Below, one piece after another: positions 8,396 through 38,266 of a DNA stretch of 39,487 bases (within the stretch, counting starts at the first letter, position 1; each line of letters starts with the position of its first letter). A program made the translations under genes and the position numbers. Under the pieces are notes generated by a model, which saw only the letters and a program-made list of their open reading frames with translations, was not told where the DNA came from and ran no database searches. The stretch is taken from NCBI GenBank assembly GCA_017448965.1, contig JAFSKK010000047.1, forward strand, positions 1-39,487, written 5' to 3'. This DNA comes from Bacteroidaceae bacterium (GTDB lineage: Bacteria; Bacteroidota; Bacteroidia; Bacteroidales; Bacteroidaceae).

Positions 8396-8425
8396 GGCCG
8401 ACAGCACCTTGTCGGCCCTTTTTTT
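8396..8425 (+). terminator. terminator of the 7851 gene
   Basis: The perfect 8-bp stem GGCCGACA/TGTCGGCC (8396-8403 with 8410-8417) encloses a 6-nt loop and is followed by seven T residues, 50 bases after the stop codon. Confidence 0.9.
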
Positions 8426-8530
8426 GTTACAAATGTAACACATCCAGTGTTACATTTGTAACAGTGCCAGTGTTACACTTGTAACAGTGCGTGTGTTACA
8501 CTTGTAACAGTGGAAGTCTCAAAAACGTTA
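8426..8530. repeat. 23-bp periodic array of palindromes (array 2)
   Basis: GTAACA starts at 8435, 8458, 8481 and 8504, exactly 23 bases apart, with a related GTTACA at 8527. Each unit also carries TGTTACA, so four palindromes of the form GTTACAnnTGTAAC are repeated (8426, 8449, 8472 and 8495). It lies between a terminator and the porin promoter, where no gene is present. It could be a cluster of operators for a dimeric protein; no matching regulator is identifiable here. Confidence 0.85.
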
Positions 8531-8644
8531 CATCGAAAGGGCGCCAGATGGAATAAATGCACTCCCATCTGAGGCACAACGAGCACGGGGCATAGGAATG
8601 AGCAGGCTTTTGATGCACATTTTTTCACTTTTCTTAACTTTCTC

Positions 8645-16292: not shown

Positions 16293-17681
16293 TCACCCCC
16301 TCTGGTTGTAGTCAGCATTCAAGTGGTTCATGGCAGTCATGAACTTGTGCAGATATACCAATGGGAGGAAACCCACGAAGGAACCCAGCACACACCAGAG
16401 CCAGTAGTCGGATGCACTGAAGGAGTATGGGATACGACGGCGCTGGAGTTCGTTGCCGATGCGGTTGCTGATGCAATGGAACCAAACAAGGCAAGCAATG
16501 CCGCCTGTCAGCCAAGACAGAATCAATGCAATCAACAGGAAGTTGGATGTCTTACGGCCATCGTACTTGCTGGCTACAATGTTGATTTCCTTGGAAATCT
16601 TCGTGAAGATGACGAGGTTGTAGATGCCAAAGGTGATAGCACCAAGCAAAATCATCTTGGCGAGGCTGCGGTTGATAGGCAGCAGCTTCTCCGGCACAAA
16701 TGGTGCGGGTTCTTCTGCCTTCACTTCCACAGGCTGTACATCCTCAGCAGGAGCAGCCTCTGGAGCCTCATCGGTTGCTTCCACATAAGCAGGTTCTGGA
16801 GCAGGCTCTTCAGCGGGAGCGGCTTCCTCAGCAGGAGCGGCTTCCTCAGCAGGAGCAGTTTCTTCGGCTGGTGCTGGCTCTTCAGCAGGAGCAGCTTCCT
16901 CAGCTGGAGCTGGTTCCTCAGCAGGTGCTGGTTCTTCCACTGCAGCAGCGAACTCTTTAACTACTTCAGGAACTTCAACGGTTTCAGGCTGTTCAACCTT
17001 ACCTTCCACGAGGTTTTTCTCTTGTTCATTAGTTGTTTCCATGTTCTCTGATGTTTTAGGGGTTAATAATGATTGTTGCTCATAGGTCTCTATTTTCTCC
17101 TTGTTAGACAGCAAGAAGTCAATGTCATCATAGGCATTCATGAGGCAATACTTCTTGTAGGAGTTGATGTCGAAGTGCTCAGAGTTGCCTGTGGCGAGGT
17201 TGATCACCGTCTGGTTGGGCACATCCACCTTCACCTCTGTCTTAGGATTGGCAGCGATGCTGTCGAAGAGTTCCTGCTGGAACTCCTTGCTCACGATGAC
17301 AGGAAGCACGAAGCAGTTGAGGAGGTTGTTGCGATGGATGTCGGCAAAGGAACTGGAGATGACGACACGAACGCCATAGCCAGCAATCGCCCATGCGGCA
17401 TGTTCACGGCTGGAACCCGAGCCCCAGTTCTGACCGCCCACGATAATCTCATGCACCCCCTTGCGAGGTGCTTCTACATACTCAGGTTGATTCATCACGA
17501 AGTCTGCCACAGGCTTTCCTTCAGCATCGAAACGGAGGTCGTGCATGAAGGCATCGCCAAAGAACTTAGGGTCACGTGTGGTGCTTGCCAAGTAACGGGC
17601 AGGAATGATGAGGTCGGTATTGCAATTGTCAATCTGGATAGGAATGCAGGTTGACTGGATGATGTCAAATTTTTCTTTCAT
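16293..17681 (-). CDS. leuD: LeuD fused to a DUF4234-like membrane domain
   Basis: A 462-residue fusion. Residues 1-200 are LeuD, small subunit of 3-isopropylmalate isomerase, with IPARYL, GGQNWGSGSSREHAAWAI and the normal end (DDIDFLLSNKEKIETYE). LeuD alone is about 200 residues and would stop there. Reading continues with no stop through 13 linker residues, then about 120 acidic, Pro/Ala-rich residues with repeats of EEPAPA/EEAAPA, and ends in a hydrophobic domain (from about 340) with three or four membrane segments: AKMILLGAITFGIYNLVIF, FLLIALILSWLTGGIACLVWF, YWLWCVLGSFVGFLPLVYL. The latter has DUF4234 character (TFGIYNLVIFTKISKEIN). An internal ATG at 17042 (METTNEQEK) could start the second part on its own. 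Start at 17681 follows the short repeat element by 9 bases. LeuC partner is directly upstream. Confidence 0.85.
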   Translation of the reverse strand: MKEKFDIIQSTCIPIQIDNCNTDLIIPARYLASTTRDPKFFGDAFMHDLRFDAEGKPVADFVMNQPEYVEAPRKGVHEIIVGGQNWGSGSSREHAAWAIAGYGVRVVISSSFADIHRNNLLNCFVLPVIVSKEFQQELFDSIAANPKTEVKVDVPNQTVINLATGNSEHFDINSYKKYCLMNAYDDIDFLLSNKEKIETYEQQSLLTPKTSENMETTNEQEKNLVEGKVEQPETVEVPEVVKEFAAAVEEPAPAEEPAPAEEAAPAEEPAPAEETAPAEEAAPAEEAAPAEEPAPEPAYVEATDEAPEAAPAEDVQPVEVKAEEPAPFVPEKLLPINRSLAKMILLGAITFGIYNLVIFTKISKEINIVASKYDGRKTSNFLLIALILSWLTGGIACLVWFHCISNRIGNELQRRRIPYSFSASDYWLWCVLGSFVGFLPLVYLHKFMTAMNHLNADYNQRG

Positions 17682-17690
17682 AATAATAAA

Positions 17691-17849
17691 AGACCCTCTC
17701 CCCAACCCTCCCCCGTAATGGGGAGGGAGGCCATCCGGCCAGCTTTTTCGATTGAGGGCTATTAAATGATTATATTATCTTTCCTATTCCCTTACATCCC
17801 GCATGGTCTCCCCTCCCCATTACGGGGGAGGGGCAGGGGGAGAGGGTCT
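17691..17849. mobile_element. short DUF559-associated palindromic element, leuC-leuD gap
   Basis: A 159-bp element with inverted outer ends: AGACCCTCTCCCC at 17691 and its complement ending at 17849. Each arm (17691-17738; 17801-17849) is itself a hairpin around CCGTAATGGGG. The inner end is CCATCCGG on the left and CCATGCGG (as complement) on the right, exactly as in the longer element at 19232-19762. The 62-bp core has no open frame. It begins 2 bases after the leuC stop codon and ends 9 bases before the leuD ATG, so it fills the whole junction and disrupts neither gene. Its strong hairpins could affect leuD expression. Confidence 0.8.
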
Positions 17850-17851
17850 GC

Positions 17852-19312
17852 TTATTTTCTTGGGTCAGTTACTACTCCTGTGATGGCCGATGCTGCCACA
17901 ACCAGCGGTGAAGCAAGGATGGTGCGAGCACCTGGACCTTGACGACCGACGAAGTTGCGGTTGCTGGTAGAGATGGAGAGCTTGCCTGCTGGCACCTTGT
18001 CAGGATTCATGGCAAGACAAGCAGAACAAGATGGGAGACGAAGCTCAAAGCCTGCTTCTTCCAAAATCTTGTCGATGCCTTCGTCGATGATTTGCTGACG
18101 AACAAGCCAAGAGCCCGGAACGAGCCAAGCCACCACATTGTCAGCCTTCTTCTTGCCCTTCACCACAGAGGCAAAGGCACGGAAATCTTCTATGCGGCCA
18201 TTGGTGCAAGCACCGAGGAAGCAGTAATCCACAGGCACTCCTTCGAGTTTTTGTCCGGGTTCGAACTGCATGTATTCCAACATGCTGAGGAACTGAGAGC
18301 GGTCAGCCTCTGGAATCTCATCAAGCGTAGGGATTGCTCCATCAATGGCGATACCAGCACCGGGGTTCGTTCCGTAGGTGATGCGTGGTGCGATGTCTTC
18401 TGCACGATAAGTCACCTCCTTGTCAAACACGGCATCCTCGTCAGAGTAGAGCTTCTGCCACTCTGCCACAGCCTTGTCCCACTCTGCACCTTTGGGCGCA
18501 TATTCACGACCTTTCAGATAAGCGAAGGTGGTCTCATCGGGAGCAATCAGACCCGCACGTGAACCCATCTCAATGGAAAGGTTGGAGAGGGTCAGACGTC
18601 CTTCCATGCTCATGTTGCGGACAGCGGAGCCAGCATACTCCACAGCATAGCCCGTGGCACCCGAAGTGGTCATCTGAGCCATGATGTAGAGTGCCACATC
18701 CTTGGCAGTCGTACCCTTGGGAAGTGTACCTTCGATGTTGATGCGCATCGTCTTAGGCTTGCTCTGAAGGATACATTGCGAAGCCAGCACCTGAGCCACC
18801 TCACTGGTACCAATACCCATTGCGATGGCACCCACAGCACCATGTGTGGAAGTGTGAGAGTCACCACACACGATGGTCATGCCTGGCAACGAAAGTGCCT
18901 TCTCAGGACCCACCACGTGAATGATGCCATTGTCCTTCGTACCCATCGCAAAGTGCTTGATGCCATACTCGGCACAGTTCTTCGCAAGGGTCTCCACCTG
19001 CTTGCAACCTACAGGGTCGTTGATAACCTCCTGCTGGTCAGACGGTGTGTTGTGGTCGGGCATTGCCACCACATGGTCAGGACGGAACACCTTGATGTTC
19101 TTGTCTCTCAATGTGTCGAACGCCTGCGGACTCGTCACCTCATGTGCATACAAGCGGTCGATATAGAGTTGTGTGGGACCATCCTCCACGTTCTGCACGA
19201 CGTGTGCATCCCAAATCTTATCGAAGAGAGTAGACCCTCTCCGCCCTGCGGGCACCTCCCCCATAATGGGGAGGGAACCATCCGGTTTGTTTGTATTCTC
19301 GTATTCTTTCAT
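17852..19312 (-). CDS. leuC: 3-isopropylmalate dehydratase large subunit, with element-encoded N-terminus
   Basis: A 486-residue aconitase-family enzyme that, with LeuD, isomerises 2- to 3-isopropylmalate in leucine synthesis. [10 protein letters not shown] and the 4Fe-4S cysteines (GACTNGR near 370 and [11 protein letters not shown] near 430) are intact. Normal LeuC proteins start about [14 protein letters not shown]. Here [12 protein letters not shown] is preceded by 27 extra residues. Of these, 18 ([18 protein letters not shown]) are encoded exactly by the palindromic arm at 19232-19285 and the first nine lie in the interior of the same element. The ATG at 19312 overlaps the stop codon of the DUF559 gene (ATGA), which indicates coupled translation. 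An internal ATG within the arm (PIMGEV) is another possible start. Confidence 0.95.
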
Positions 19313-19762
19313 AATGATAAATGTTCTTTTATTCTTTTAATTACTTGTTCTGCTGAACAGAAGACTTCTTCATTGGTGAAACGCACAATAGAAAATCCCA
19401 TTTGTTCAATTAATACAGTCCTTATTCTATCTTCTTCTATTTGGGTATCTACAAAATGATAGCCCCCATCAACCTCCACAATCAGCTTTTTCTCCAAACA
19501 AATGAAATCTGCAATATAATCGTAAACAACATATTGCCGTCTGAATTTGACGCCTAAAGCACCACCTTTCAGTAATCGCCAAAGATATCTCTCGGCCTCG
19601 GTCGGATGTTCCCTGTTTTTCCTTGCGAAATCCTTCAATAGCGATACCTATCTGGACTTGCTGTTCGGAAATACGGAGGTGCCTCATACTGTTCCATCAC
19701 TGTCGAATCACACCCCGCATGGTCTCCCTCCCCATTATGGGGGAGGGCTGGGGAGAGGGTCT
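19232..19762. mobile_element. DUF559-carrying palindromic element, leuA-leuC junction
   Basis: A 531-bp unit with inverted outer ends: AGACCCTCTCC at 19232 and GGAGAGGGTCT ending at 19762. Left arm 19232-19285 has inner end CCATCCGG; right arm 19715-19762 has inner end CCATGCGG as complement. Each arm contains a hairpin around CCATAATGGGG or CCATTATGGGG. The interior carries one gene, the DUF559 protein (19309-19638). One end abuts the TAA of leuA (19763-19765); the other ends at the third codon of the ancestral leuC body. No obvious target-site duplication. This is the full-length version of the elements at 17691 and 37772. Confidence 0.8.
19309..19638 (-). CDS. DUF559 (Vsr/PD-(D/E)XK-like) endonuclease-domain protein
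   Basis: A 109-residue protein of the DUF559 family, related to very-short-patch-repair and other PD-(D/E)XK endonucleases. The typical opening [23 protein letters not shown] (residues about 12-36) is followed by the nuclease core [22 protein letters not shown], where D..E-V-D are the expected active-site residues, and by a C-terminal helix region. Length is normal. No ATG is available at the N-terminus: an in-frame TAG lies at 19648 and the first usable start is TTG at 19638. Its stop overlaps the leuC ATG. The gene is enclosed by inverted palindromic arms inside the leucine operon and unrelated to leucine synthesis. It is probably the gene of a mobile element; nuclease activity on the arms is inference. 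Confidence 0.82.
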
Positions 19763-21265
19763 TTAGTCCCTAAATTTATTGATACAGTCAATGTATGCTT
19801 CGACGGAGGCGGTGACGATGTCGGTGTTGGCACCAAAACCGTAGTAGAGGTGACCGTTGTATTCCACCTGCATGTGCACTTTGCCCATGTCGTCGCTGCC
19901 CTTCGAGATGGCTTGGATGGTGAACTCCTTGAGGGTCATCTTGCGCTTGATGATGCACTTCAGCGCATTGATGGCAGCATCGACAGGACCATTGCCCGAT
20001 GCGGCAGCCTCGAAGTGCTCGTTCGCCACCTGCAAACCGATAGAAGCCACAGAACGAACTCCCTTGCCGGTGGTCACCTGCAGATAATCCAGCTTCACGT
20101 TGTGGGCAGCACTGCGCTCTGCACCTGCCAATACGAGGATGTCATCGTCCGTCACTTCCTTCTTCTTGTCAGCCAGCTTCAGGAACTCCTCATAAATCTG
20201 GTCGAGCTTCTCGCCATCCACCTCCACGCCGTTCACGTGCAGACGATGCTTCAAGGCTGCACGACCACTACGAGCCGTCAGTACAATGGCGTTGTCGTCG
20301 ATCCCCACATCCCTTGGATCCATGATTTCGTATGTGGATGCGTTCTTCAACACACCATCCTGATGGATGCCACTCGAATGGGCAAACGCATTCTTACCCA
20401 CAATCGCCTTATTAGGCTGCACTGGCATGTTCATCAATGAAGACACCATACGGCTCGTCGGATAAATCTTCGTCGTGTTGATGTTCGTCTCGATGCCGAG
20501 ATCGGGGTGCGTCTTGAAAATCATCGCCACCTCTTCCAGCGAAGTGTTACCGGCACGTTCACCGATACCATTGATGGTCACCTCCACCTGACGCGCACCA
20601 CCCAGCACACCAGCCACCGTATTGGCAGTAGCCATACCGAGGTCGTTGTGGCAGTGGGTCGAGAGGATGGACTTGCCAGCAGCAAAAGCATCCACATGCT
20701 CATAGAGGTATTTGATTTTCTCATGATATTCGTTCGGCACACGGAAACCCGTCGTGTCAGGGATGTTACAAACCGTTGCACCAGCCTTGGTCACCGCATC
20801 AATCACACGAGCCAGATACTCGTTGTCCGTGCGGCCAGCATCCTCAGCATAGAACTCCACATCCTCCACGTACTTCTTGGCATACCTCACAGCAGCCGCA
20901 GCACGTTCGATGATTTCCTCAGGAGTCGAGTTGAACTTGTACTTGATATGCGTGGGGCTTGTGCCAATACCCGTATGGATGCGCTTATGCTTTGCATACT
21001 GCAACGCCTCAGCAGCCACATCAATATCCTTCTCCACTGCACGAGTCAACGCACAGATGGTCGGCCACGTCACTGCCTTCGAGATTTCAACCACACTGTT
21101 GAAGTCGCCAGGGCTGGAGATTGGGAATCCAGCCTCGATGACATCCACGCCCAACGCTTCCAACTGCTTAGCCACCTGGATCTTCTCAACCGTGTTGAGC
21201 TGACATCCAGGCACCTGCTCGCCATCGCGCAGCGTAGTGTCAAAAATAAATAATCTGTCTGCCAT
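19763..21265 (-). CDS. leuA: 2-isopropylmalate synthase
   Basis: A 500-residue enzyme condensing acetyl-CoA and 2-oxoisovalerate, first step of leucine synthesis. DTTLRDGEQ is at residues 9-17, the metal-binding HCHNDLGMA at about 203-211, and [15 protein letters not shown] follows. The C-terminal third (from about 390, including [21 protein letters not shown]) is the leucine-sensing regulatory domain, so feedback inhibition is expected. The ATG at 21265 gives a standard [15 protein letters not shown] start. It is the first structural gene of leuA-DUF559-leuC-leuD and lies behind a transcription attenuator (21316-21468). The palindromic element begins at the base right after its stop codon. 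leuB is not in the window. Confidence 0.96.
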
Positions 21266-21315
21266 ATTTTAATTAAGTTTTAGTTCTCACAACCATGAGG
21301 CACAACTACCTGCAT

Positions 21316-21353
21316 TTAAAAGTAAAACCTTCCCCACAGCCGTGAGAAAGGTT
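21316..21353 (-). terminator. leucine attenuator (terminator hairpin)
   Basis: On the minus strand AACCTTTCTCAC (21353-21342) pairs with GTGGGGAAGGTT (21337-21326), 12 bp with two G-U pairs around the tetraloop GGCT, followed by TTTTACTTTT. It lies 20 bases after the leader peptide stop codon and 60 bases before leuA. Confidence 0.88.
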
Positions 21354-21437
21354 AAACATACTTTTTATATCGTTATGCCTGACAGCACATACGCACCTTT
21401 CTCACCTCCGACCCTGTAAGTCGTAGTGCCCAAAGGT
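21342..21437 (-). promoter_or_regulatory. antiterminator and 1:2 pairing regions of the leu leader
   Basis: Region 2 (GTGAGAAAGGT, minus strand of 21395-21405, inside the leader peptide gene) is perfectly complementary over 11 bases to region 3 (ACCTTTCTCAC, 21342-21352), which is also the 5' arm of the terminator. Region 1 (ACCTTT, 21432-21437), within the leader Leu codons, can pair with the AAAGGT of region 2. This is the complete alternative-structure set of a classical attenuator: a ribosome stalled at Leu codons covers region 1 and frees region 2 to form the antiterminator. Confidence 0.82.
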
Positions 21438-21468
21438 TTAGAAGCGCCGTGTTGCTATACGTTGCCAT
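21373..21468 (-). CDS. leuL: leucine operon leader peptide
   Basis: A 31-codon open frame from ATG at 21468 to TAA at 21373. It reads MATYSNTALLNLWALRL and then TGSEVRKVRMCCQA. Five of nine consecutive codons (21418-21444) are Leu: CTT, CTA, CTT, CTA, CTT. It begins about 18 bases after the predicted start point and ends just before the terminator. Ribosome stalling on scarce Leu-tRNA at those codons would let 21395-21405 form an antiterminator, so leuA-leuD is transcribed; free passage to the stop codon would mask that segment and allow termination. The peptide itself has presumably no other function. The logic is standard for amino-acid operons; this peptide I do not know from databases. 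Confidence 0.85.
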   Translation of the reverse strand: MATYSNTALLNLWALRLTGSEVRKVRMCCQA

Positions 21469-21491
21469 TTTACTGAATTCTATTTTGGCTG

Positions 21492-21499
21492 CAAAGATA
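21492..21499 (-). promoter_or_regulatory. -7 box of the leucine operon promoter
   Basis: TATCTTTG on the minus strand fits the Bacteroidetes -7 box; the start point would be near 21485, about 18 bases before the leader ATG. The -33 box is weaker: TGGTTG-like at 21516-21521. Confidence 0.65.
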
Positions 21500-21749
21500 A
21501 CACATTCTTTCAAAACAACCACGCTTTTTGTCAAAAAAATTTCAAAAACATGTCCGACAAGCCTTTATCTTGGACATTTGAGGATTAGCCACTTTTGTTC
21601 TTTCCCGAAAAGTTGTCACCGTTGGATGTGAAAAACCCTCTTCTGGTGTTCTTTAATTTAACTTCAGATGTGTTTATTAGGCTTCGTGTGACGAAATAAA
21701 ACCTATTAAAAATCCTCACCTTGATTGTATGGCGTATGAGACCCCTATT

Positions 21750-21956
21750 GTCGGTGTCTCTGTTAAAGTAATGCAACATGCTTTGATGGCTGAGCGTAAC
21801 ATGCTCGGCCTGAAGATTTTAACACAGCCAGTCAATTGACCGTAACATGCTCGGTTCAATGACTGTAATGTCCTCAAATGGGTTAGTGTAAGAACCTCCA
21901 CTGACTCAGTGTAACAACCTCCATCACGGCAACGTAAGTACAAAAATAAATCGCTT
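21750..21956. repeat. 23-bp periodic array, GTAA core (array 3)
   Basis: Units start at 21750, 21773, 21796, 21819, 21842, 21865, 21888, 21911 and 21934, each exactly 23 bases. From 21773 on they open with GCAAC, GTAAC, TTAAC, GTAAC, GTAAT, GTAAG, GTAAC and GTAAG. Related neighbours share more: GTAACATGCTCGG at 21796 and 21842; GTAAnAACCTCCA at 21888 and 21911. Despite strong divergence no unit has an indel. No open frame follows it. The stretch before it (21541-21749) shows neither gene nor structure that I can support. Confidence 0.75.
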
Positions 21957-22033
21957 CTTACGATTGATAAACCGGAAGAAGCGATTGATGAGCCGAAACA
22001 AGCGATTGATGAATCGTAAGAAGCGATTTATGG
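21946..22033. repeat. 21-bp array closed by a 20-bp inverted repeat
   Basis: Four 21-base units start at 21950, 21971, 21992 and 22013 with core GCGATTGATGA (last unit GCGATTTATGG). The ends form a perfect 20-bp inverted repeat, ATAAATCGCTTCTTACGATT at 21946-21965 and its complement at 22012-22031. The array ends 7 bases before the -33 box of the HU-family gene and directly follows the 23-bp array. Confidence 0.8.
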
Positions 22034-37000: not shown

Positions 37001-38266
37001 TTATCTGCGGATGGTGAGCGGTATGGCTTCTTCGTGCTGCTGGCAGAAGGTGGAGGCATCGTTGACCACGAGGGCAAGATAACCACCGCCACCTGCACCT
37101 GGCATCTTCCATGCCAGTACATCAGGCAAGACAGAGTATTGGTCTATATACTCCTGCACACCTGGCTGTATCATGGCGGGGAAGAGGGTGATTTGTGCAT
37201 TGAACGAAGCTTGGTAGGCTGCCGCAAAAGCGTTGAGGTCTGTCTGTAGAATGGCTTGCCAGCAATTGTCTGCCGCTGTGGCCAGAGCCTTCACGTTGGC
37301 TTCGTTGAGGTCTTTTCCCTCCACCACCGAACAACCTGGTCGGCGAGGAAACATGGGAATCATGCACAAGTGCTGCTCCAGCCAGCGAAGAACTGTCTCG
37401 TCAGTACACGACTCTATGCGCTCAGGCCAGTAGTGGGCATTGTAGTAGTGACGGCAAAGTCCTGGCATGCAGATGCCAATCGCATCCTGTGCACCGCTGA
37501 TAATGCCATCGGTGCGCTCTGGGTCGTTCTCGAAGCAGAAGACAAGTTTCGCCAGCATCTCAGGATCCATGTCGGGCAGACGGACTGGCCAGATGCGCTT
37601 GATTTGATTGCGTGTGGAGGTGGAGAGTCCGCAGCGTTCGCGAATCTCGAAGGTGGGCAAGAGCGAGATGGTGATGGCCCATCCTGCTGCGTATGTGCTC
37701 ACGTAGGGTTGGTCAATCCATGTGCCAGCAAGGTCGAGACGGGTGGGAATACCTTCGGAGACCCTCTCTCCAGACCCTCTCCCCAACCCTCCCCCGTAAT
37801 GGGGAGGGAGACCATCCGGAAGGCTCTCCCCATCATGGGGGAGGGTTGGGGAGAGGGTCTGAAGACTCGCTTTGATGCTCGTGCTGCTACGTGCCTCCAA
37901 CCCTTCGGCTGGAATGCGGTCGAGCACGATGTATTCGATGCCACGCTCTTCGCAGAACTTACGCTTCTCCTCACTCGACCCGTCGGCATTCACCACAAAG
38001 CGGTCGGGCTTCAAGGCCTCCACTGTGGGGATGAAGTCCATCACGCCAGAGCCTTGATTGATGAAGGCATCCTTCACATAGCGGATGCTCTTCACCATGA
38101 AAAGGCGTTCCTTCTCAGGGTAGAGCGTCTTGTGGTTCTTATAGGTGAGAATCGTTGCATCCGACCCGATGCCCACATAGAGGTCGCCGTATTGACTGGC
38201 CTGTCGGAAAAACTCGACATGACCGCTGTGAAGAAGGTCGTAACAACCGCTGACAAAGACTTTCAT
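37001..38266 (-). CDS. cytidylyltransferase-like + GHMP kinase-like fusion with repeat-encoded linker
   Basis: A 421-residue two-domain protein. Residues 1-135 are a nucleotidyltransferase domain: GCYDLLHSGHVEFF with the HxGH motif at 13-16, and RSSTSIK near 127-132 as the conserved end. Residues 173-421 resemble GHMP sugar kinases (PTRLDLAGTWIDQPYVS, ISGAQDAIGICMPGL, PGAGGGGYLALVV), close to fucokinase-like proteins; the canonical ATP loop is present only in the last motif. Residues about 132-170 are unlike either and are encoded by the palindromic repeat at 37759-37860, in frame. The role may be activation or phosphorylation of fucose-derived sugar; reaction uncertain. ATG at 38266, 46 bases after ADH. 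Confidence 0.8.
   Translation of the reverse strand: MKVFVSGCYDLLHSGHVEFFRQASQYGDLYVGIGSDATILTYKNHKTLYPEKERLFMVKSIRYVKDAFINQGSGVMDFIPTVEALKPDRFVVNADGSSEEKRKFCEERGIEYIVLDRIPAEGLEARSSTSIKASLQTLSPTLPHDGESLPDGLPPHYGGGLGRGSGERVSEGIPTRLDLAGTWIDQPYVSTYAAGWAITISLLPTFEIRERCGLSTSTRNQIKRIWPVRLPDMDPEMLAKLVFCFENDPERTDGIISGAQDAIGICMPGLCRHYYNAHYWPERIESCTDETVLRWLEQHLCMIPMFPRRPGCSVVEGKDLNEANVKALATAADNCWQAILQTDLNAFAAAYQASFNAQITLFPAMIQPGVQEYIDQYSVLPDVLAWKMPGAGGGGYLALVVNDASTFCQQHEEAIPLTIRR
37759..37860. mobile_element. minimal palindromic element inside the kinase gene
   Basis: Arms 37772-37819 (AGACCCTCTCCCC outer end, CCATCCGG inner end) and 37822-37860 (complement, outer end GGGGAGAGGGTCT) face each other with two bases between. 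A partial extra outer end, AGACCCTCTCTCC, precedes at 37759-37771. Same family as at 17691 and 19232, without an interior. The frame stays open through it, adding about 35 residues rich in Gly and Pro between two domains. Confidence 0.8.

Follow-up and report, generated by a model that had tools for sequence, protein, structure and literature searches.

The 39,487-nucleotide contig JAFSKK010000047.1 of a Bacteroidaceae bacterium, analysed here over its whole length and referred to as the window, contains between leuC and leuA a gene for a DUF559/YcjD-type nuclease that is enclosed by inverted palindromic arms. On the best reading of the sequences we compared, this arrangement would be a very small mobile element in its gene-carrying form, with the DUF559/YcjD nuclease, a protein resembling Vsr and homing endonucleases, as its sole enzyme. 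It is very probable that arms and gene form one mobile element in the genus studied; that the nuclease drives the spread of this element is likely, to a lesser degree. The element would comprise two inverted ends, each with a hairpin beside a mirror-repeat third strand, and the single nuclease gene. Gene-less copies, which evidently outnumber the gene-bearing form in the source genome, are taken as non-autonomous.

Arms and nuclease of the gene-bearing copy

The left arm of the full copy lies at 19232..19285 on the plus strand and reads AGACCCTCTCC...CCATCCGG. The right arm (19715..19762, minus strand) reads AGACCCTCTCC...CCATGCGG on the minus strand and adjoins the stop codon of leuA (19763..21265, minus strand), which ends where the element starts. 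A preliminary description of this DNA had pointed to inverted palindromic arms around a DUF559 gene, to distinct inner ends (CCATCCGG left, CCATGCGG right) in both the full copy and a shorter one at 17691-17849, and to a beginning at the base beside the leuA stop codon; all of these were recovered, with the same coordinates and copies. Complementarity is perfect between 19255-19276 and 19725-19746 (22 nt, 100%), and reaches 94% between 19715-19762 and 37772-37819 and 92% between 17689-17738 and 19715-19764.

The nuclease open reading frame (ORF) occupies 19309..19638 on the minus strand, with 109 codons from a TTG. It belongs to DUF559 (PF04480; 105.7 bits against a cut-off of 20.6, E 1.5e-30) and has the PD-(D/E)XK, Vsr-like fold with its conserved acidic core. 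The family named in the preliminary description was correct, while the length of 109 residues turned out to be a 5'-shortened reading: the homologue in a neighbouring genome (L052, genome G010) starts at an ATG and has 129 codons, and the corresponding 5' codons of the window (19639..19697, minus strand), in frame in L052, are off-frame here, the first 20 codons lying in a different frame from the remainder. Because of this break, the window gene may be decaying, or the draft may contain an error. Two further open DUF559 copies are present in the source genome, and a ratio of non-synonymous to synonymous substitution rates (dN/dS) near 0.1 indicates that the nuclease is under purifying selection. 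The structure alignment took in 47 of 66 DUF559 loci; among those left out are L033, L039 and L059, and L045, L065 and L066, where DUF559 lies within longer host frames.

Arms were scored as the best inverted match between the 350 nt upstream and the 350 nt downstream of the DUF559 domain. The genus sample started from 42 matches; 11 of these lacked a locus and the other 31 were examined. In it, all 28 stand-alone genes score at least 12, 24/28 at least 14 and 20/28 at least 20. Outside the genus, 42 loci were reduced to 38 by removing L062 and L063 (repeats of G010 and G035) and L093 and L103 (cut by contig ends), and this set covers Bacteroidota, Chloroflexota, Proteobacteria, Acidobacteriota, Patescibacteria, Cyanobacteria and others. 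The same thresholds are reached by 29, 25 and 14 of the 38, as opposed to 19, 3 and 1 of 251 shifted control windows, so the enrichment of DUF559 between inverted arms, put forward for checking in the preliminary description, is found at a score of 14 in the genus and elsewhere. A score of 12 is weak by itself because 8% of controls reach it; the remaining four genus loci (L032, L044, L047 and L049, scoring 12-12.5) have C/G-rich palindromes on both sides by eye. As judged from these loci, the arm-gene unit recurs in many phyla.

The arms also appear to diverge together with the nuclease. Among 34 loci preselected for a score of at least 20, mean arm similarity is 0.72 within a locus and 0.27 between loci, and protein similarity correlates with arm similarity (Mantel r 0.63, n = 34; 0.79 in the genus, n = 20; 0/2000 permutations in each case). 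A DUF559 gene adjoins the leuC start in seven of 43 leuC-bearing genomes. Genes at this site without arms were looked for, and all six fetched loci of the seven carry arms that match within each genome though they have diverged between genomes.

Two DUF559 loci are recorded as observations in their own right. In Sphingomonas (L208, approximately 1360-2005, in the GatB/YqeY-dnaG gap), the gene has doubled palindromic arms on each side. In a plasmid-labelled record of Neisseria gonorrhoeae (L206), the gene is related to the solved structure 3hrl (NGO0050), and sequences similar to the enterobacterial triplex motif discussed below lie upstream and farther downstream of it.

Gene-less copies within and between genes

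With one mismatch at most allowed, the 3.03-Mb draft of the source genome has 59 matches to the core CTCCCCCRTRATGGGGAG, and the reversed control of this core has 0 occurrences across all 45 genus genomes searched. Fifty of the 59 matches form 25 convergent pairs and nine are unpaired; with two pairs on a duplicated contig removed, 23 distinct pairs remain. All 23 are convergent, and the random arm orientation that the preliminary description had named as a contrary outcome is not observed. Core starts lie at most 150 nt apart in 22 of the 23 pairs; the remaining pair, at 472 nt, is the DUF559 copy, and no gene except DUF559 was seen within the 23 pairs. No core match was found in 20 of the 45 genus genomes, and the others besides the source genome have 1 to 42. 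The five genomes with a DUF559 gene of this arm variety contain 59, 42, 41, 35 and 13 cores, against a mean of 4.6 and a median of 0.5 in the other 40 (p 2e-4, in a grouping by arm variety that was made post hoc and with tests that ignore phylogeny).

The window holds two gene-less copies. The short one occupies the gap between leuC and leuD, with its left arm at 17691..17738 on the plus strand and its right arm at 17799..17849 on the minus strand; the same copy is present in G010, a different arm variety occupies the site in G014, and the copy was not seen in the remaining relatives whose gap sequence was inspected. The second (37772..37860, plus strand), with arms almost touching, is predicted to fold as a single long hairpin (z -8.6). 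Its earlier designation as a minimal copy holds, to which we add that it lies in frame inside a cytidylyltransferase-like ORF (37001-38266, minus strand) and adjoins an apparent part of a further copy.

Insertion within genes is common in the source genome. Its arm loci comprise 33 matches, 30 of which were fetched; nine have no two recognisable ends and 21 are complete, two of them on a duplicated contig, leaving 19 distinct copies. Fifteen of the 19 are in frame inside an ORF open on both sides, while L001, L005, L006 and L010 are intergenic by inspection. The host genes include CTP synthase, topoisomerase, a MutS-type gene and a PFL-like gene. A Pfam scan of ten of the 15 host ORFs matched a family in every case, and a single domain match spans the element in the ArsP-type permease, the topoisomerase and the CTP synthase. 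One frame of the element is used most, since 11 of the 15 in-frame copies share a peptide starting with TLSPTLP.... The whole DUF559 element is also found in frame within a host protein, in 3/66 loci: an isoleucyl-tRNA synthetase (L065), a type ISP methylase (L066) and an epimerase (L045). The first of these, from a Cytophagaceae draft genome (L065, 75-4073), has the element in the middle of the synthetase in one 1333-codon frame.

The leuC gene of the window (17852..19312, minus strand) has its native start replaced by element sequence. Its frame begins at an element-internal ATG that overlaps the DUF559 TGA as ATGA and continues through the left arm, which is open in frame as the new leuC N-terminus. 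Supplying the leuC start codon in this way, the left arm is not merely intergenic. In several element-free relatives the leuC start, ATGGGAAAGACA, directly follows leuA.

These positions bear on the view that DUF559 is a normal member of the operon and the arms its ordinary terminators or RNA-stabilising hairpins. In favour of this view, the arms are able to fold into hairpins and some of them are found where genes end, but the 15 of 19 distinct complete copies that are in frame in coding sequence contradict it, and PIT/TM elements, the enterobacterial repeats compared below, are reportedly without promoter or terminator activity in the available text of their description (PMC4666352). We consider this explanation almost certainly wrong.

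Element-free alleles and the proposed route of spread

Empty sites, whose comparison the preliminary description had advised, exist in relatives as element-free alleles with a short replaced stretch of about 10-40 nt. In pyrG, six of 20 loci (the source genome's own included) carry elements at the same point, in at least three varieties; the others have 7-16 nt there (85 nt in one), and the 20 lengths all leave the same remainder modulo 3. The MutS-type gene has two insertions. At site 2, 15 of 19 relatives have 29 nt versus 107 in the source genome, with 20/20 in frame; at site 1, 17/20 keep the frame, and L158, L159 and L173 represent a frame shift or indels in the anchors. In the PFL-like gene, 96 nt of the source genome correspond to 15 nt in G010, a close relative; 20/20 are in frame, a single arm is present in two relatives and a nested copy in another. 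The reverse case occurs upstream of leuA, where G010 has an element (L216, 640-1000) and the window (21200-21560) about 40 other nt. From the majority state at these sites, the element-free condition is inferred to be ancestral.

No flanking direct repeat of at least 2 nt was found in 45 copies with distinct flanks, the ends being fixed as AGACCC...GGGTCT (0/45, with about 2.8 expected by chance at two nt; a duplication at shifted ends would escape this count, and the copies come from several genomes and hence are not 45 independent events). Given the element-free alleles and the absence of such repeats, a copy is most likely gained by replacement of a bit of the target, with no duplication.

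The distribution of copies also helps to judge homing or gene-conversion drive, in which the targets cut by the nuclease would be palindromes of the arm type or alleles lacking the element, and homologous repair would copy the element only into existing arms or homologous alleles, new sites arising rarely and by other means. Different varieties do occur at one site, yet the copies are spread over numerous unrelated sites whose flanks are not homologous, and no arm is present in most of the element-free alleles inspected; we regard homing as unlikely. Enzyme-free spread, with the arms propagated by replication slippage or template switching at hairpins and a nuclease that cleans up or profits, agrees with the lack of target duplication, the short replacements and the loss of arms between repeats (the G007 pyrG scar, E. 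coli L241 and L296). It leaves unexplained why the gene-arm unit recurs across many phyla, why arms and protein diverge together and why dN/dS is so low, and is in our view quite improbable.

The preliminary description had proposed that the nuclease, or DNA repair set off by it, spreads or maintains the repeats, a view that the comparisons partly support. In the mechanism we prefer, the nuclease would recognise the structure of its own arms, probably when these are extruded or single-stranded at the replication fork, and would cut or nick at the arms, the target or both. Host repair would copy the element into the break with little homology and the loss of few target bases. Arms free of stop codons in the used frames would let copies survive within genes, and where the element gives the start codon, as in leuC here, the host may be unable to lose it cleanly. 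Nuclease-made breaks at structured ends with repair copying fit the data because the nuclease is conserved, the ends are matched, duplications are absent and target sequence is replaced; nesting in other copies, occasional single arms and microhomology scars (GGTCTGT in the G007 pyrG) are further fitting traits.

Several points weigh against a nuclease-driven element. Movement by the nuclease is inferred from sequence, and the window's own nuclease copy looks 5'-broken. Nine of the 38 outside-genus loci have no paired arms at a score of 12. Co-divergence may be overstated, the Mantel result being partly shared descent because six genus loci represent the same leuC site. The presence of any stand-alone DUF559 gene, as opposed to none, predicts the number of cores weakly (p 0.054), and two drafts in which no DUF559 was detected contain 33 (G021) and 18 (G039) cores. 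The several varieties at one protein loop may reflect tolerance of the loop, not targeting. The order of parts within the arms is not constant: the third strand is outermost in the genus, L065, L081, L085 and the Pantoea pairs, and the hairpin in L074, L075, L078, L079, L091 and four of the five pairs of E. coli K-12. Triplex repeats accompany E. coli ycjD and the Pantoea gene only on one flank, these genes lying beside and not between the repeats; the Pantoea ORF runs into its repeat, which, taken with the following hairpin, has the appearance of an adjacent gene-less pair and not of an arm around the gene.

Some of these points, namely arms in genomes without detected DUF559 and an enterobacterial gene beside the repeats, would also follow if DUF559 were a passenger: a host very-short-patch repair gene, or some other gene, caught between arms that something else moves or amplifies. 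Caulobacter VsrA is indeed taken for a repair enzyme by its authors, according to the accessible text (PMC12907096). This explanation must be set against the absence of any other gene inside the source genome's core pairs, the arms flanking the examined stand-alone genus genes, the co-divergence of arm and protein, the lack of a Y1 transposase match in the richest genome, and a best defence-library E of 0.0036 for the window protein with none for YcjD. We find the passenger account rather doubtful, and prefer an element spread by its own nuclease.

A wider proposal is tentative, and we place it somewhat below an even chance: a bacteria-wide class of elements with no DDE, HUH or S/Y enzyme, in which a Vsr-type nuclease would act on triplex-forming ends, insertion would proceed by break repair with target replacement, and the class would be the source of BoxC/TM repeats and a continuing supplier of in-frame peptides, including in essential enzymes. 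The arm-flanked nuclease gene itself offers a candidate enzyme for a class of repeats that occurs in E. coli and in over 260 further prokaryotes, a number taken from the available text of their description (PMC4666352), and may help to explain how these long-known bacterial repeats spread. DUF559, a widespread family whose function is unknown, would acquire a role, and in-frame segments would reach proteins by an additional path; if this is true, some of the peptide stretches inserted in predicted bacterial proteins, here of the TLSPTLP...GEG type, are mobile DNA.

Three other features of the window were noted. The palindrome TGTTACAnnTGTAACA is repeated in tandem with a 23-nt period at 8425-8539, just 5' of an ORF at 8598, in an operator-array-like arrangement. 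The leuD ORF (16293-17705; Aconitase_C) is joined to a DUF4234 domain via a repeat of 18-nt period (16741-16957). Upstream of leuA, at 21946-22032, a 21-nt unit with CGATTGATGAAxCG and inverted ends is repeated in tandem.

Comparison with known systems

Palindromic repeats, a unit with a single nuclease gene and many gene-less copies characterise the systems of repetitive extragenic palindromic (REP) sequences with REP-associated tyrosine transposases (RAYT/REPIN). The element is like REPtrons and REPINs in each of these respects, and the term REPtron-like, used in the preliminary description, is apt as an analogy. Membership was rejected: the source genome, an 86%-complete draft, has 0 PF01797 (Y1) matches at E<=1e-3, and the enclosed gene is DUF559. 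The window enzyme is a PD-(D/E)XK Vsr-like protein and not a Y1 HUH nuclease, and many copies lie in coding sequence. REPtrons have a GTAG or CGTC tag beside the REP palindrome, as described in the accessible part of PMC3733652.

With miniature inverted-repeat transposable elements (MITEs) the element shares shortness, terminal inverted repeats and gene-less copies. It differs in having no target-site duplication and no transposase gene seen alongside the copies here, and insertion of the DDE/MITE type was rejected on the lack of target duplication in 45/45 copies. Known RNA families were ruled out for the window, which has 0 Rfam matches at the gathering score. An anti-phage system was rejected on the defence-library search with PADLOC (best E 0.0036 for the window protein, nothing up to 0.01 for YcjD); the Pantoea DUF559 protein was matched in 3/50,697 phage records.

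Rickettsia palindromic elements (RPEs) are short palindromes inserted in frame in unrelated protein genes, according to the available text of PMC10969869, a habit common to both, and the likeness is one of description. A DUF559-bearing Rickettsiales genome has 21 arm copies, and the link to RPEs is kept as an analogy because just 3/21 of its loci are open across the core, all in a tandem array, and no copy lies clearly in a coding frame. Contig C4 of the Rickettsiales genome G065 (L272-L290) has clustered arrays with arm units 48 nt apart around a DUF559 gene.

Among related enzymes, the Vsr-type homing endonuclease I-Bth0305I is labelled as a mobile intron protein, while the window element has neither an intron nor a unique homing site. 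YcjD has been predicted to belong to the PD-(D/E)XK proteins (PMC1189080), and Caulobacter VsrA, a DUF559 protein, is responsible for an SOS response in a methylase mutant and proposed for very-short-patch (VSP) repair (PMC12907096). That response shows genotoxic activity; the authors read VsrA as acting in mismatch repair (PMC12907096). Both belong to the same Pfam family as the window nuclease, and the accessible portions of PMC1189080 and PMC12907096 contain no tie to repeats.

A G/C-rich intrastrand triplex motif (TM), earlier called BoxC or PIT, is present in more than 260 genomes according to the available text of Holder et al. (PMC4666352), where triplex formation in vitro is demonstrated for TM_ECO, all five TM pairs of K-12 are given as an A plus a B form, and mobility activities are stated never to have been found near the motif. 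The window arms, with the layout CCCTCCCC-ATTATG-GGGGAGGG-CT-GGGGAGAGGGTCT, form a G/C-rich hairpin with a mirror-repeat third strand and match the layout of this motif. This resemblance, like the in-frame copies in coding genes and the replacement of target sequence with no duplication, goes beyond the preliminary description. TM_ECO matches in the flanks of the 66 DUF559 loci reach a score of at least 14 in 39/132 cases versus 3/225 controls, and of at least 18 in 12 versus 0. A TM pattern test of 20 DUF559-bearing genomes gave matches in 13 and none in seven; the motif nearly mirrors itself, for which reason the reversed control comes close to it in several genomes, and only the exact matches and pairing of Pantoea (G048) were used. 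Pantoea has 42 exact TM copies, 34 of which form 17 inverted pairs, each with an xxA and an xxG form, in parallel to the A plus B pairing given for K-12. No paper linking DUF559 to these repeats was found in full-text literature searches, most subscription papers being outside their reach.

In K-12 (C600), the gene order is sapF, ycjD (a DUF559 match at E 1.4e-49), TM-type repeats and fabI. BoxC was reportedly first noted near fabI. The ycjD locus is at least 80% covered in 3330/5426 E. coli genomes, and one control list of DUF559-bearing genomes omitted E. coli although K-12 (C600, L237) has ycjD. Other E. coli genomes have an efflux operon in place of ycjD (cf. the available text of PMC12817139). 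In E. coli strain 167 (L241), the 3' end of ycjD and the adjacent repeat were lost between a duplicated stretch of approximately 23 nt of the gene end. At hrpB-mrcB, two of the other strains inspected have roughly a dozen different nt in place of the K-12 pair, and in a third strain the inner segment separating the two hairpins is gone. The arms of the window, as read from their sequence, and TM_ECO/BoxC as described share the hairpin with a mirror third strand and the inverted pairing of two non-identical forms. They differ in their surroundings: the E. coli copies are reported as intergenic with no mobility gene nearby in the accessible text of PMC4666352, whereas here a nuclease gene and copies within coding sequences are associated with such arms.
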